Translations under genes and position numbers: made by a program
Assembly: GCA_900314635.1 (NCBI GenBank)
Contig: OMVY01000008.1
Span: forward strand, 1 to 64,000
DNA: 64,000 nucleotides
Direction of reading: 5' to 3'
Origin: an uncultured Methanobrevibacter sp.
GTDB lineage: Archaea > Methanobacteriota > Methanobacteria > Methanobacteriales > Methanobacteriaceae
In this document: positions 16,390 through 35,120 of the stretch, piece after piece
How positions within the stretch are numbered: the stretch's first letter is position 1
How the letters are laid out: each line of letters opens with the position of its first letter
The notes under the pieces: generated by a model
The model's database searches: none
What the model was told of the DNA's origin: nothing
The model's input: the letters and a program-made list of their open reading frames with translations, nothing else

Positions 16390-16695
16390 ATGAACAACCG
16401 TTTTGAAATCGCTCGTGAATTTGCAAATAGGATAAAATCTGATGAGATTAAAAAAATTATCCTGTTTGGTTCCGTAGCTCGCGGCAGAGACACTGAAGAT
16501 TCGGACATTGATATCTTGATAATATCTCCAGAAAGCGCAGAGTTGGAATCAAGAATTGATGACTTGATTTATGAGTTTATTATAGAAAAAGACGAGCTGA
16601 TCTACGCCCATGTCATGAGTGAATCCCATTTCAATAAACATAAGGATAATCATTTCCTGCAGAATGTTTTAAAAGAAGGTGTTATAATTGGTTGA
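16390..16695 (+). CDS. MNT-type nucleotidyltransferase (MntA-like)
   Basis: The 101-residue protein is a minimal nucleotidyltransferase. The active-site motif GS-x10-D-x-D is complete at residues 27-41 (GSVARGRDTEDSDID). In MntA-HepT systems the MNT protein is the antitoxin and adenylylates a tyrosine of the HEPN toxin. The adjacent gene, overlapping by 8 bases, is a HEPN protein, so this is a standard two-gene pair. The start follows GGTGATT. Role as antitoxin comes from family knowledge. Confidence 0.9.
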   Translation: MNNRFEIAREFANRIKSDEIKKIILFGSVARGRDTEDSDIDILIISPESAELESRIDDLIYEFIIEKDELIYAHVMSESHFNKHKDNHFLQNVLKEGVIIG

Positions 16696-17062
16696 TGAAG
16701 ATGTCATGGGGAATTTCAATTTAGCCAAGGAAGAGCTTATTTCAGCTAAAATATTGCTTGATGCTGGAAGATATCGTGATTGCGTTACTTTATCTTACTA
16801 CGCCATGTTTGATGCAGCTAAAGCATTGTTGCTTAGTGAAGGATTTTCTTCTAAGAAGCACGATACAACTTTAAAACAGTTTAGCCTTGAGTTTGTTCAT
16901 AAAAAAGGGTTTGATATAGAGACCTATAAATATTATTCCAATGCTAAAAGAAGAAGAAATAAATCCAGTTATGATTATTCTGTTGAATTCAGTGAAGAGG
17001 AGGCAGAAATAAGAGTTTCTCAAGCTGAAGAATTTATTATGGAAGCAGAAAGATTCTTATAA
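16688..17062 (+). CDS. HEPN-domain protein (HepT-like)
   Basis: The 124-residue protein is an all-alpha HEPN domain with LSYYAMFDAAKALLLSEGF at about residues 35-53. The expected catalytic R-x4-H-x-Y motif reads RNKSSYDY at residues 90-97, with tyrosine in place of histidine, so RNase activity may be reduced or lost. Tyr97 remains as a possible adenylylation target. AAGGTG upstream supports a TTG start at 16688 overlapping the MNT gene by 8 bases; ATG at 16706 is the alternative. The pair is probably a toxin-antitoxin module or a relic of one. Confidence 0.85.
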   Translation: MVDEDVMGNFNLAKEELISAKILLDAGRYRDCVTLSYYAMFDAAKALLLSEGFSSKKHDTTLKQFSLEFVHKKGFDIETYKYYSNAKRRRNKSSYDYSVEFSEEEAEIRVSQAEEFIMEAERFL

Positions 17063-17142: not shown

Positions 17143-17168
17143 TGATGTTTGCTAATATTATATTGTAT

Positions 17169-17240
17169 AGTCCCGTGGGGTAGTGGTAATCCTTTTGGGC
17201 CCTGGACCCGAAGACAGCGGTTCGACTCCGCTCGGGACTA
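17169..17240 (+). tRNA. tRNA-Gln (anticodon CTG)
   Basis: A complete cloverleaf can be drawn. The acceptor stem AGTCCCG pairs with CGGGACT (17233-17239) and A17240 is the discriminator. The T arm is AGCGG, loop TTCGACT, CCGCT. The anticodon stem TTGGG/CCCGA encloses the loop CCCTGGA, placing CTG at positions 34-36. The A1-U72 pair and the AGTCCCGTGGGGTAGTGGT start are typical of archaeal tRNA-Gln. Position 33 is C rather than the nearly universal T. CCA is not encoded. Confidence 0.92.
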
Positions 17241-17392
17241 TTCACATTTGTTTTAATTATTTAACAATTTCTTTTTTTTACAGAATTCTATTTTTATCAG
17301 GAGTTATTCTTTATAATCAATCGCTATTTAAAACATTTTGTTAATTATATTTACAAAACTATTTTTTATTAATCAAAATAGATATTTATACA

Positions 17393-17476
17393 GGGCTGCC
17401 CAAAGCGTTTTTTACATTTTTCTTTACATATCATCCCCTTTACATATGTTTATTGAAAAACGGGTATCCCTTTTTT
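17393..17476 (+). ncRNA. candidate structured RNA, copy 1
   Basis: GGGCTGCC (17393-17400) pairs with GGTATCCC (17463-17470) with one mismatch, and CGTTTTT (17406-17412) pairs with AAAAACG (17456-17462). Inside, CATAT (17427-17431) and ATATG (17444-17448) form a hairpin with the loop CATCCCCTTTAC. Six T residues follow the outer stem. The same inner hairpin, with loop CACCCCCTTTTAC, and a comparable outer stem occur at 33353-33425. The loop resembles the 16S rRNA 3' end. The strand is assumed from the T-run; a GATATTTATA only 3-12 bases before the stem is too close to be its promoter. It may also help terminate the facing yeiH-like gene. Confidence 0.4.
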
Positions 17477-20504: not shown

Positions 20505-20667
20505 TATATTGATATAAAATAATAATTACTATTATTATGGGGCGTGATAGTAGGGTTAATAATTTCAAATTTTCATTTCTAATTTTTAAAGACTTTTTTT
20601 TAAAAACGAAACGCACTAGCATGCCGTTTATAATAATTTCAAAATTTTTTACCTAGGGGGTGAATGA

Positions 20668-20943
20668 ATGCTTGATGAGAAAAATTATCCAATGACTTAC
20701 AAGGAATATGAAAAGAGAGTAATCGAATTATTGCTTGAGGACTGCGACGAGAGATTCAGGGAGTTGATGATGGAAAAGGTAGAAGCTGAACTTGAAAAAG
20801 AGCCTAACTTCATTCAAATGAGTTATGGTTATGACTGCTTCGATTACGACCACCCTGAAATTTATGGAGAAGTCTCTAAGAAAACATTTGAAGACGAGTT
20901 TCTAAGACAGACTCCAGTCGCAAATTTAAGAAAGATATTATAA
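20668..20943 (+). CDS. hypothetical 91-residue acidic protein
   Basis: The protein is acidic and mostly helical, with YKEYEKRVIELLLEDCDERF at the N-terminus and a tyrosine/aspartate-rich middle (YGYDCFDYDHPEIYG). I recognise no family. A strong ribosome binding site, AGGGGGTG, lies 6 bases before the ATG, so it is very likely translated. An overlapping ATG four bases earlier is out of frame. The TPR gene begins 110 bases later in the same direction and may share the transcript. Confidence 0.65.
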   Translation: MLDEKNYPMTYKEYEKRVIELLLEDCDERFRELMMEKVEAELEKEPNFIQMSYGYDCFDYDHPEIYGEVSKKTFEDEFLRQTPVANLRKIL

Positions 20944-26235: not shown

Positions 26236-26766
26236 ATCAACACCTTTACTAAGTATTTATAAACTTTATTGTTTGCAGCATATATATGATATATTATAAC
26301 AGGTATTTGACTTATTAGATGTGTGGAAACTTTGAGTTCCATCTATTCAAAAAAAAAATAGTTAGAATTGAAATCAAATTGATCCTTTCTTATTCATATC
26401 AAACCCTGTTACATAATTTAATTTAATTTTATTAGTTAATAAAGCTTATTAAAATTTCATTATTTCTTTTCTCTTAATAAATCATTATTTTTTATCAGAT
26501 TCTCAAAATTTAAAAATATAGATTATTTTTTGACTAATTTTTCATATGGCTGCATTTTATATAGGGAGGACTTGGCTAGAGTAGTTCTTTTTTTTTTTTA
26601 AAAAAAAGAATTAATGGCTGATAAAATTACTAAACTATTCTTATTTTATGAATAATTGTGGGGCTAAAAAATTTGAATGTGAAATATATGCTGAAATTGG
26701 AGTGAAAAAAGCATAAATACTGCATGCTCTAAATATAATCATAAATAATGTAAAGGAGTGATTATT
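26236..26766. other. intergenic gap, no gene seen
   Basis: About 530 AT-rich bases separate the divergent secreted-protein gene and zinc-finger gene. A TTTTATATAGGGAGGACTTG segment near 26554-26573 combines a TATA-like box with a purine run but leads to no reading frame, and a T14/A8 near-palindrome follows at 26589-26608. I see no RNA that I would name. Confidence 0.4.
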
Positions 26767-27156
26767 ATGGAAAAATGTGGAACTTGCCCTAATTGCGGCT
26801 CTGACTTGGTGAAAAAGGAAGGTAGAAACGGGGCTTTCATCAGCTGCTCTGGTTTTCCCAAATGTAAATTCTCAATGGATTACAAGGAGGAAAACATAGA
26901 TCTCGATTTTGAAAACATCGACAAGTGCCCTAACTGCGGATCTGAACTTGTAAGAAAAAGCGGTTCAAAAGGAAGCTTTTTAAGCTGCTCTAATTTTCCG
27001 AAATGCAGATTCTCCATGGACTGCAAATCAGAAGGCGATTCCTATGGCAACTGTCCTGAATGTGGTGCGCCTCTTGAAAAGAAAAATGGAAAGCGTGGAG
27101 AATTCCTAAGTTGTTCCAACTTCCCAAAATGCCGTTTCTCAAAGGATATTGATTAA
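26767..27156 (+). CDS. three topoisomerase-type zinc fingers
   Basis: The 129-residue protein is three copies of the C4 zinc finger found at the end of type IA topoisomerases. Each has CPNCGSDLVKKEGRNGAFIS-like sequence followed by C-x5-F-P-K-C-x-F-S. The copies begin at about residues 6, 50 and 94. The topoisomerase catalytic domains are absent. Such free-standing fingers probably bind single-stranded DNA. I chose ATG 26767, 8 bases after GGAG, over a GTG inside that GGAG. A related two-finger protein is encoded at 29134. Confidence 0.88.
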   Translation: MEKCGTCPNCGSDLVKKEGRNGAFISCSGFPKCKFSMDYKEENIDLDFENIDKCPNCGSELVRKSGSKGSFLSCSNFPKCRFSMDCKSEGDSYGNCPECGAPLEKKNGKRGEFLSCSNFPKCRFSKDID

Positions 27157-33320: not shown

Positions 33321-33328
33321 TTTATATA
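33321..33328 (+). promoter_or_regulatory. TATA box for the candidate RNA
   Basis: TTTATATA, preceded by GGGAAAGATA, is centred 28 bases before the first paired base of the hairpin element at 33353. No protein start follows at a fitting distance, which suggests a non-coding transcript. Confidence 0.5.
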
Positions 33329-33352
33329 TAATTGAATTAATCTATTATTAAT

Positions 33353-33425
33353 GGGATTGTCCTTAACCCTTTGCATATCACCCCCTTTTACATATGTATT
33401 TTTTTTGTAATTTAAGGGCGATCCC
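33353..33425 (+). ncRNA. candidate structured RNA, copy 2
   Basis: GGGATTGTCCTTAA (33353-33366) and TTAAGGGCGATCCC (33412-33425) form a 14-pair stem with two G-U pairs. Inside, CATAT (33374-33378) and ATATG (33392-33396) enclose the loop CACCCCCTTTTAC. The inner hairpin is shared with 17427-17448. A TATA box lies at the right distance upstream and a T-run (CGCTTTTTTT) ends near 33450. The loop preceded by AT reads ATCACCCCC, close to the ATCACCTCCT end of archaeal 16S rRNA, so it could pair with Shine-Dalgarno sequences; that is inference. Confidence 0.5.
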
Positions 33426-33702
33426 AGATTATGATGATAATTCGCTTTTTTTAATTAATTCATTACTTTCATGCTCTCGCTAATTCTTATTTATTATTAA
33501 AATCCATATTATTTTAGTTGAAAATTATTTCTATTGCCCATAACTCATTGTACTTTTTTCAAAAGAAGAATTTTCAACTGCTCCTTTTAAATGAAATCTA
33601 TTTTTTTCACAACAAATATTTTAATCGCTAACTGATTGTTTTTTTATTTTTATTTCTTTCACATTATGTAATGTATTTTGGATATTTTTTGCATTTACCT
33701 TT

Positions 33703-33870
33703 TTTTACATTATGTAATGGGACTTGCATTATGTAATGTGATGTGTGTGTTTTGCATTATGTGATGGAACTTGCATTATGTAATGTGATGTGTGTATTTT
33801 ACATTATATAATGGGACTTGCATTATGTAATGTGATGTGTGTGTTTTGCATTATATAATGGAACTTGCAT
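33703..33870. repeat. 47-bp tandem repeat upstream of the ATPase gene
   Basis: Units begin at 33703, 33750, 33797 and 33844 (the last partial), a strict 47-base period. Each full unit carries two near-palindromic boxes of the type CATTATGTAATG about 10 bases apart and a GTGATGTGTGTG tract. Similar boxes occur at about 33662. The array ends 60 bases before the start of an ATPase gene whose product has a DNA-binding domain, so these may be operators. The other bases from 33426 to 33702 are AT-rich with no gene. Confidence 0.9.
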
Positions 33871-33929: not shown

Positions 33930-35120
33930 ATGGCTGAAATACCATGGGGAAATAATAGTGATCTTGATGATTCTCAATTTTATAACCGTGAGAATGAACT
34001 CTATTTTTTACATAACATATTAAACACAACTAAAGACGGAATACCTCCCGCCATTTTATTGACTGGAGTAAGGGGTGTTGGAAAAACAGCATTAATGAAA
34101 AAGCTCAGGAATGACTTTTGCAATGATTATCTGGTAGTGTATGTTGACCTGTCCATGTCCGACAATTATCAAAGCGGAAATCTGACTCGTGAGGGGTTTA
34201 TGGAACATTATTATGATGAAATAATCAGGGCATGCAAGGATGCAGGATTAAAGACCATAGATAAAAAGTTGAAAAAATTCATTAAAACCAATGATCTGTC
34301 AATAGGGGATATTGTGGACTTTGAAGGGGTTCCCCTGCCTATTGTCAGCGCTAAGGAAAATTATAAAAAGCTTGCCGATTTTGTGATGAACCTGCCTCAA
34401 ATGATTTATGAGGAATACTGTAATGATATCAAAGGAGTTTTGGTATTCTTTGATGAATTTCAGGTAATTAAGGATTTGGATAAGGATTTAAACAGTTTCT
34501 TATGGTATGTCAGGGGCTTCGTCCAGTCACAGAAAAACACAGCTTACATGTTTACTGGAAGCATGAGCCTTAAAGACAGTCTAATTGGGGAAATTGCAGG
34601 AAAAAACGGTGCATTCGGCGGCAGGATACTCACTTATGAACTGGAGGCATTCTCATATGATACAACAAGGAATTATCTGATTGAAAAGGCAGGACATCTT
34701 CGCTTTAGCGAAAGCGGTTTTGAGAGATTTTACAAATGTACGGGAGGAATTCCGTTTTATATAAACAGCTTTGCAAGGCTCTTGTCACATGAGGAAATCC
34801 TGGATGAGAAAAAATTAAGTTCCGAATTTAAAAATGCTCTGCCCTTTTTGGCCATTCATTTAATCAGCTATTGGGACAAGCTTACTTTCCAGGAACAGAA
34901 AGTCATAACTGCTTTGGTTGACGGTCCTCAAAGAAGGGTGAGGATTGCTGAAAAGCTGAATGTTACGAGTGGAGCCATAGGAGGTTCATTAAACCGCCTG
35001 CAGGATAAGGCTCTGATTGAGATGGATGATGGAAAGTATAAGATTTCCGATTCCATCTTCAGGTCATGGCTGAAGAGCGAATTTGAAAGGAAGGGAGTAT
35101 ACCCTTACAGGAGTTTCTAG
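33930..35120 (+). CDS. archaeal AAA ATPase with winged-helix domain
   Basis: The 396-residue protein has a P-loop GVRGVGKT at residues 46-53, a Walker B VLVFFDEFQ near residue 170, and a sensor-like MFTGSMS near residue 208. The C-terminal 70 residues form a winged helix (LVDGPQRRVRIAEKLNVTSG then a wing). This is the archaeal ATPase (AAA_16/ORC-like) family common in methanogens, with functions from regulation to defence. GAGGG lies before the ATG. The 47-bp repeats just upstream may be its own binding sites. Confidence 0.88.
   Translation: MAEIPWGNNSDLDDSQFYNRENELYFLHNILNTTKDGIPPAILLTGVRGVGKTALMKKLRNDFCNDYLVVYVDLSMSDNYQSGNLTREGFMEHYYDEIIRACKDAGLKTIDKKLKKFIKTNDLSIGDIVDFEGVPLPIVSAKENYKKLADFVMNLPQMIYEEYCNDIKGVLVFFDEFQVIKDLDKDLNSFLWYVRGFVQSQKNTAYMFTGSMSLKDSLIGEIAGKNGAFGGRILTYELEAFSYDTTRNYLIEKAGHLRFSESGFERFYKCTGGIPFYINSFARLLSHEEILDEKKLSSEFKNALPFLAIHLISYWDKLTFQEQKVITALVDGPQRRVRIAEKLNVTSGAIGGSLNRLQDKALIEMDDGKYKISDSIFRSWLKSEFERKGVYPYRSF

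Follow-up and report, generated by a model that had tools for sequence, protein, structure and literature searches.

The alpha-r14 or "cuckoo" RNAs, among them NfeR1 of Sinorhizobium meliloti and its counterparts in other alpha-proteobacteria, are described as carrying an identical, ultraconserved and unpaired anti-Shine-Dalgarno motif on highly different stems and as using it to silence mRNAs at the translation initiation region (PMC10746234). The predicted RNA family reported here is alike in setting a constant unpaired anti-Shine-Dalgarno motif on stems of differing sequence. It differs in being archaeal and in its motif, which is (UAU)CACCCCCUUUAC instead of CCUCCUCCC; the latter was not found in the sequences of the present family that were examined. 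Whereas the alpha-r14 RNAs have three hairpin loops with CCUCCUCCC, as far as that account describes them, most types of the present family have one CAYCCCCUUU loop and type F has two CACCCCC loops. We claim no sequence relation to the alpha-r14 RNAs, and silencing, which is described for them, is here a prediction.

Among archaea, loop 2 of Methanosarcina mazei sRNA154 carries an anti-RBS sequence that masks the RBS of glnA2, and masking of RBSs has been proposed for sRNA41 of the same species (PMC5867862). The present family resembles these two RNAs, on the published description, in being archaeal, intergenic and of anti-RBS design, but unlike it they were tested in the cell and were reported in Methanosarcina. 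To our knowledge, they also differ from it in copy number and in sibling stems. The C-rich-loop sRNAs of Firmicutes (for example RsaE/RoxS and LhrC of Listeria) likewise occur as sibling copies in which short single-stranded C-rich motifs pair with Shine-Dalgarno regions, but they are bacterial and have other structures and partners. The present family is of the alpha-r14/cuckoo design and is not a member of the alpha-r14 or the sRNA154/sRNA41 families by sequence or defining motif.

We know of few archaeal trans-acting sRNAs with known targets, and a literature search turned up no trans-acting sRNA described for Methanobrevibacter, one of the main methane producers of the rumen. Because its constant loop is short, its loci are known exactly in a strain group of which one relative has been cultured, and its prediction is simple (G5 versus GGAGG sites), the family makes approachable the question of whether sibling anti-Shine-Dalgarno RNAs are in use in an archaeon.

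Two Copies in the Window

The window, by which we mean the whole 64-kb stretch of Methanobrevibacter DNA that was analysed, contains two sites beginning at 17393 (copy 1) and 33353 (copy 2), each with the inner hairpin CATAT/ATATG, as the preliminary description had reported. Both are given here on the + strand. Based on its sequence, its fold and relatives with paired changes, copy 2 is predicted to be a small RNA with a body at 33353-33425 that comprises an outer stem, an inner hairpin and a C-rich loop. The 5' arm of the outer stem, GGGATTGTCCTTAA (33353-33366), is the partner of the 3' arm TTAAGGGCGATCCC (33412-33425), a pairing supported by sequence, by the fold and by the arm-permutation test given below. 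The conserved core CATATCACCCCCTTTTACATATG (33374-33396), which was used in the core searches, consists of CATAT (33374-33378) and ATATG (33392-33396) enclosing the loop CACCCCCTTTTAC (33379-33391), in which CACCCCCT is unpaired with a mean P of 0.99. Copy 2 folds with an MFE of -20.8 kcal/mol (z -4.3), a stability equalled by 0 of 200 shuffles. The TATA box tttatatata at 33321-33330 lies 23-32 bases 5' of the stem and is well placed, as had been claimed, and a T-run at 33446-33452 may act as a terminator.

Copy 1 is the less stable of the two. Its predicted body spans 17393-17470, its stem has one mismatch and one bulge, and, folded as 17393-17476, it has an MFE of -15.3 (z -2.1) with 9 of 200 shuffles equally stable. 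Its core CATATCATCCCCTTTACATATG (17427-17448) has one C-to-T change in the loop. At the distance of the copy 2 TATA box there is only a weaker TATA-like stretch (17362-17369), a putative promoter element by its position, and a better TATA at 17384-17390 is too near the stem. A T-run (17471-17476) follows the stem immediately. The minus strands, compared with their own shuffles, fold more weakly (z -2.1 for copy 2 and -0.2 for copy 1).

The core shared by the two sites, CATATCAYCCCCTTT(T)ACATATG, is beyond chance: in 100 shuffles of the window, the copy 2 core at ≤3 mismatches has 0 expected occurrences. The window contains three occurrences of CAYCCCC: one in each copy and a third on the minus strand, at 20656, which is antisense to a gene start. 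The outer stems of copies 1 and 2 each have their own spelling, unlike that of any of the lettered types described below. Just before a tRNA-Gln (17168-17241) and copy 1, the window carries a nucleotidyltransferase and HEPN gene pair (16390-17062) that resembles a toxin-antitoxin system. Beyond copy 2, a tandem array of ACATTATATAATGGAACTTGCATTATGTAATGTGATGTGTGTG (33703-33870; period 47, 3.6 copies, 90% match) sits 60 bases before an archaeal ATPase gene (33930-35120).

Distribution of the Family

A pattern spanning both window cores has three exact matches in the 2.29-Mb genome to which the window belongs (C11:17427, C11:33374 and C35:23714) and none with the reversed control. Exact cores are present in 12 of 19 Methanobrevibacter genomes, again with reversed controls at 0. 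Allowing ≤3 mismatches to the 24-mer, 40 places were found, spread over 17 of the order's 150 genomes, with no match in the reversed control of any of the 150. The 17 divide into 16 of the 19 genomes of the genus versus 1 of the 131 others; this tally includes five decayed or odd places (C10, L105 in G002, two in G016 and G072), and not all of the places were aligned. The search for more copies with paired outer-stem changes returned many, their stems respelled yet paired. In a GTDB-based genome collection, all 19 matching stretches belong to Methanobrevibacter, including M. olleyae. A viral origin was considered and not kept; a viral contig collection yielded one exact match to the family, and a phage collection gave no match to the contig around the copy labelled B2.

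The T4 variant of the core has matches in two more genomes, which belong to another genus. The two loci, of 3,021 bases each, are identical to each other, and the flanks of the single match in G072 are nearly the same as those of the C17 locus in the window's own genome; the copies in other-genus genomes are therefore likely to reflect transfer or mis-binned contigs. The identical 3-kb stretch (L045/L046, at G076:C70 and G080:C28; L034 = L035) carries a type B copy together with a type III restriction-modification system.

A Predicted Structured RNA on the Plus Strand

The outer-stem differences between copies had been described as compensatory, and an alignment of 14 sequences (types A and B and both window copies) bears this out. 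Across the six outermost and six inner base pairs, 99.4% of cells are paired, and 19 cells are changed on both sides, compared with 6.2 ± 1.9 in shuffles (0 of 500 reach 19) and 0-5 when the partner is slid. Further pair types numbered 8 in this alignment versus 10.2 in shuffles, which is not above expectation. Type B alone (10 sequences) gives a weaker signal in the same direction, with 6 both-side cells reached in 2 of 500 shuffles. When the outermost 12-nt arms of eight RNAs are matched, 82 of 96 pairs form versus a permutation mean of 52, and the only one of the 40,320 arrangements to reach 82 is the true one.

An exact TTTATA starts -33 to -29 from the stem at 27 of 39 loci, the spacing seen in copy 2, while elsewhere in the 60 upstream bases there are 11 scattered matches; this count leaves aside eight rows that lack a recognised stem start (L051 and seven slightly altered type C rows). 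Searches of Rfam 15 at the gathering score found no family match in the window except the tRNA at 17169-17240, and none at six loci of types A, B, C, D, E and F; for the copy 2 region at E ≤ 5, the best score was 20.7 bits against a cut-off of 55. Guide RNAs of the H/ACA class have an ACA or ANA box after a pocketed hairpin and those of the C/D class have C and D boxes; no such features were apparent by eye or by Rfam.

The suggestion of a new small RNA family is thereby strengthened, since the elements have no Rfam match, paired stem changes and promoter-like signals at a fixed distance. We are confident, from these comparative data, that they represent a new family of small, structured RNAs that is limited to the genus and lies on the + strand, their status as RNAs being predicted. 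An encoded peptide was also considered, and this reading was dropped because the 14-codon frame of type A stops after two codons in the type A copy of the own genome (by eye) and because the loop varies by one base in length (T3/T4).

Types of the Family and Their Surroundings

The copies sort into about eight types that differ in the spelling of their paired outer stems. Type A (stem GAGAATAATATG/CATATTATTCTC; 12 loci) lies, where the contig extends, between argG upstream and a convergent sfsA downstream, family names that are profile-based at one locus and rest on the same protein beginnings at the others. Type B (stem GGAACTAATCC/GGATTAGTTCC and variants) has varying surroundings, its downstream genes changing between loci. 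Type C (stem GAATTATTAACTATAC/GTATAGTTTATAATTC) and type D (stem AAGGACTAA../..TTAGTCCTT) each have a second hairpin, and in three genomes type D is found ∼800 bases before a type B copy with one ORF between them (G003 L049/L167, G013 L054 and G018 L014). Type E (stem GATTACCCTA/TAGGGTAATC) is represented at C17 of the own genome, ∼310 nt upstream of the gene for ATP synthase subunit H, the AhaH score of which is 1.4 bits below cut-off. In type F, UUAUCACCCCCUUUAC follows a hairpin whose loop carries CACCCCC. Genes for zinc-ribbon proteins are recurrent beside the copies and among the genes with GGGGGTGA sites (L179, L188, L174, L058 and L060; most by eye).

Types C and E raise the question of whether the elements are cis-acting leaders (riboswitches or attenuators), in which the loop would sense a small molecule or protein and control the downstream gene, the free-standing copies being derived. 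At all 10 loci examined, type C is 156-256 nt upstream of, and in the same direction as, the gene for a manganese-dependent inorganic pyrophosphatase (NF003877), with another hairpin and a T-run between them, and type C hardly varies over a stretch of 80 nt; the position of type E before the ATP synthase gene is also consistent with a leader. However, type A, the type most often found in synteny, has argG on one side and a convergent sfsA on the other, with no gene to lead. The genes after type B copies vary by locus, and in the window 500 nt separate copy 2 from the next gene, while the gene that copy 1 faces is oriented towards it. We therefore regard a leader function as an unlikely explanation for the family, and for type C itself such a role may still hold because this type is always upstream of the pyrophosphatase gene. 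At one such locus (L096:1713-2630 and upstream), the 80-nt near-invariant element, the second hairpin and the T-run before the pyrophosphatase gene together have the appearance of a possible leader.

A Constant Unpaired Loop

The inner CATAT/ATATG hairpin, noted at the outset as the design shared by the two sites, holds for the window copies and for types A, B and E but is lost in types C, D and F, and was rejected as the defining motif. Wherever present it is invariant and so has no support from covariation. The constant feature is instead the unpaired UAUCACCCCCUUUAC, since the inner hairpin is missing from three types; CAYCCCCT is unpaired with a mean P ≥ 0.96 in all 14 folded representatives. 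A loop fixed letter for letter on stems that are freely respelled resembles a pairing seed or a protein site. In types A, B and D, a second C-rich motif, AAACCTTT, recurs in an internal loop, of which it occupies the 3' side in type A and the 5' side in type B, and AAACCUUUA is likewise complementary to Shine-Dalgarno-like letters.

UAUCACCCCCUUUAC is complementary to Shine-Dalgarno regions and prefers GGGGGUGA over GGAGGUGA. Its predicted duplex is -22.2 on a G5 site and -15.3 on a GGAGG site, whereas the 3' end of 16S rRNA, which we take to be GAUCACCUCC, is near-equal on the two (-15.4 and -16.3). The loop is predicted to disfavour the ordinary GGAGG site because it has C where the assumed 16S tail has U. 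It had been proposed that the loop could bind ribosome binding sites, and predicted pairing is indeed better at starts than inside genes. Against 156 predicted starts, which were drawn from 11 sources and chosen partly by their fit to the assumed 16S tail, the core has a mean duplex energy of -9.4 kcal/mol versus -4.3 kcal/mol at +60 to +90 of the same genes. This difference is reached by 0 of 200 shuffled cores, and the mean start energy alone is equalled by 6 of 200. When sites on both strands of the window are ranked, self-matches aside, 9 of the top 20 lie at starts of listed ORFs.

We propose that the family consists of multi-copy small RNAs of roughly 75-140 nt, mostly free-standing, in Methanobrevibacter of the ruminantium/olleyae kind. 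Each would be transcribed from the + strand by its own TATA promoter, with transcripts beginning approximately where the outer stem begins. This stem, its letters free to change, would present the constant unpaired UAUCACCCCCUUUAC, which may then pair with the Shine-Dalgarno region of G5-type messages (AAAGGGGGUGA or AUGUAAAGGGGG), often through the start codon, and so block ribosome binding and repress a putative regulon. Masking of G5-type Shine-Dalgarno sites, with a presumed block to translation initiation, is the action we favour, with modest confidence. A point against a role as a seed only is that the conservation of type C spans 80 nt, beyond the need of a seed.

Candidate Targets

Two candidate targets lie in the window, both on the + strand. 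The stronger is the GGGGGTGA site and start (20646-20670) of ORF 20668-20943, which encodes 91 aa with no Pfam family (duplex -19.3 kcal/mol), and the weaker is ATGTAAAGGAGTGATTATTATG in the start region (26748-26769) of the zinc-ribbon ORF 26758-27156 (-16.2 kcal/mol). The best single candidate overall is a gene with no Pfam family that starts with ATGTAAAGGGGG...ATATG in G015, G004 and G008, three of the four orthologues seen, where pairing is predicted to extend across the Shine-Dalgarno sequence and start codon (-25 to -28); in G015 this gene is <3 kb from a type B copy. The fourth orthologue, near a type B copy in G003, a genome with four copies, carries no more than AAGGGGGA at the start (-15.8). 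Among genes of the own genome, the one at C10:52988 is the best candidate (ATGTAAAGGGAGTGAT, -23.6); it has no Pfam or NCBIfam family, and 85 bases upstream of it lies a decayed copy in antisense orientation. The few long reading frames found with GGGGGTGA before ATG include three for zinc-ribbon proteins (protein beginnings, by eye).

Longer complementarity is rare. The 14-nt complement GTAAAGGRRGTGAT has 36 matches in the 19 genomes, of which 35 are the antisense of copies and the other is the C10 gene start in the own genome. For AAAGGGGGTGA, 7 of 43 matches fall outside copies, only some of them at gene starts, which is not above the control (11 reversed-control matches), and G009 and G010, genomes with no detected copy, have ATGTAAAGGGG starts as well. 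A perfect trans target was sought and rejected, as no conserved full-length target was found when the own genome was searched with GTAAAGGGGGTGAT, allowing ≤2 mismatches. Searches with TCACCCCCTTT, with GGGGGTGA..ATG in four genomes, and with ATGTAAAGGR..ATG in 19 genomes (among the matches listed, without G018 and part of G017) likewise gave no conserved full-length target.

A different role for the loop would be as a protein-binding mimic of the 16S rRNA 3' end that titrates a ribosome-maturation or ribosome-binding factor, presumably of the Dim2/KsgA/Nob1 type. The loop AUCACCCCCUUU is one base off the assumed tail over AUCACCUCC and is unpaired in all folded representatives, and the lack of a conserved full-length mRNA complement in the 19 genomes is consistent with such mimicry. 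Against it, the family has U (or A) in place of the G that precedes AUCA in the tail, and its invariant CCCCC differs from the tail within the anti-Shine-Dalgarno sequence. This makes titration, in our judgement, distinctly improbable. The 16S 3' end itself was not found in the own genome and three relatives, the archaeal SSU model had no match in G003, and GGATCACCTCC was not found in G000, G001, G003 and G016; rRNA genes seem to be absent from these four assemblies.

Returning to the masking of G5-type sites, one can speculate further that the RNAs form a clade-wide archaeal translation switch, in which sRNAs with exchanged stems and a one-letter-altered 16S tail would silence G5-class messages together, and siblings in the pyrophosphatase leader and before the ATP synthase genes would link it to energy status. 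We give this broader scheme little credence; if it were true, the silenced subset would include several zinc-ribbon or unknown clade-specific proteins.

DNA Elements and the Opposite Strand

Several scattered copies per genome, some of them decayed-looking (C10, L105, L161 and L052), and the copy beside a type III restriction-modification system in a stretch identical in two other-genus genomes are features expected of repeated or mobile DNA (a transposon relic, for instance, or a site of insertion or recombination) that does not function as RNA. Three observations argue against this. First, the outer stems vary by paired changes. Second, types A and C each keep a single syntenic position and are far more alike between loci than their flanks are. 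In a comparison restricted to loci flanked by 260 bases, identity among the 12 type A RNAs is 97% versus 31-59% in four neighbouring 80-base blocks, and over 10 type C loci it is 97% in the first 80 nt and 78% in the hairpin part versus 60-68% in three flanking blocks. Third, the TATA boxes are at a fixed spacing. A purely DNA-level explanation is accordingly very improbable.

It is scarcely credible that the functional strand is the minus strand, on which the loop would serve a short reading frame as its Shine-Dalgarno sequence (GGGGGTGATATG), because, although GGGGGTGAT-ATG looks like a good start site and ∼40 codons are open behind copy 2, the frame reads ATG-TAA at once in types A and B and is broken by an indel in type C (L080 and L110), and both the TATA boxes and the G.U wobbles of the stems are on the + strand. 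Read on that strand, the stem wobbles comprise eight distinct G.U cells versus two A.C cells, both of which are in one decayed copy.
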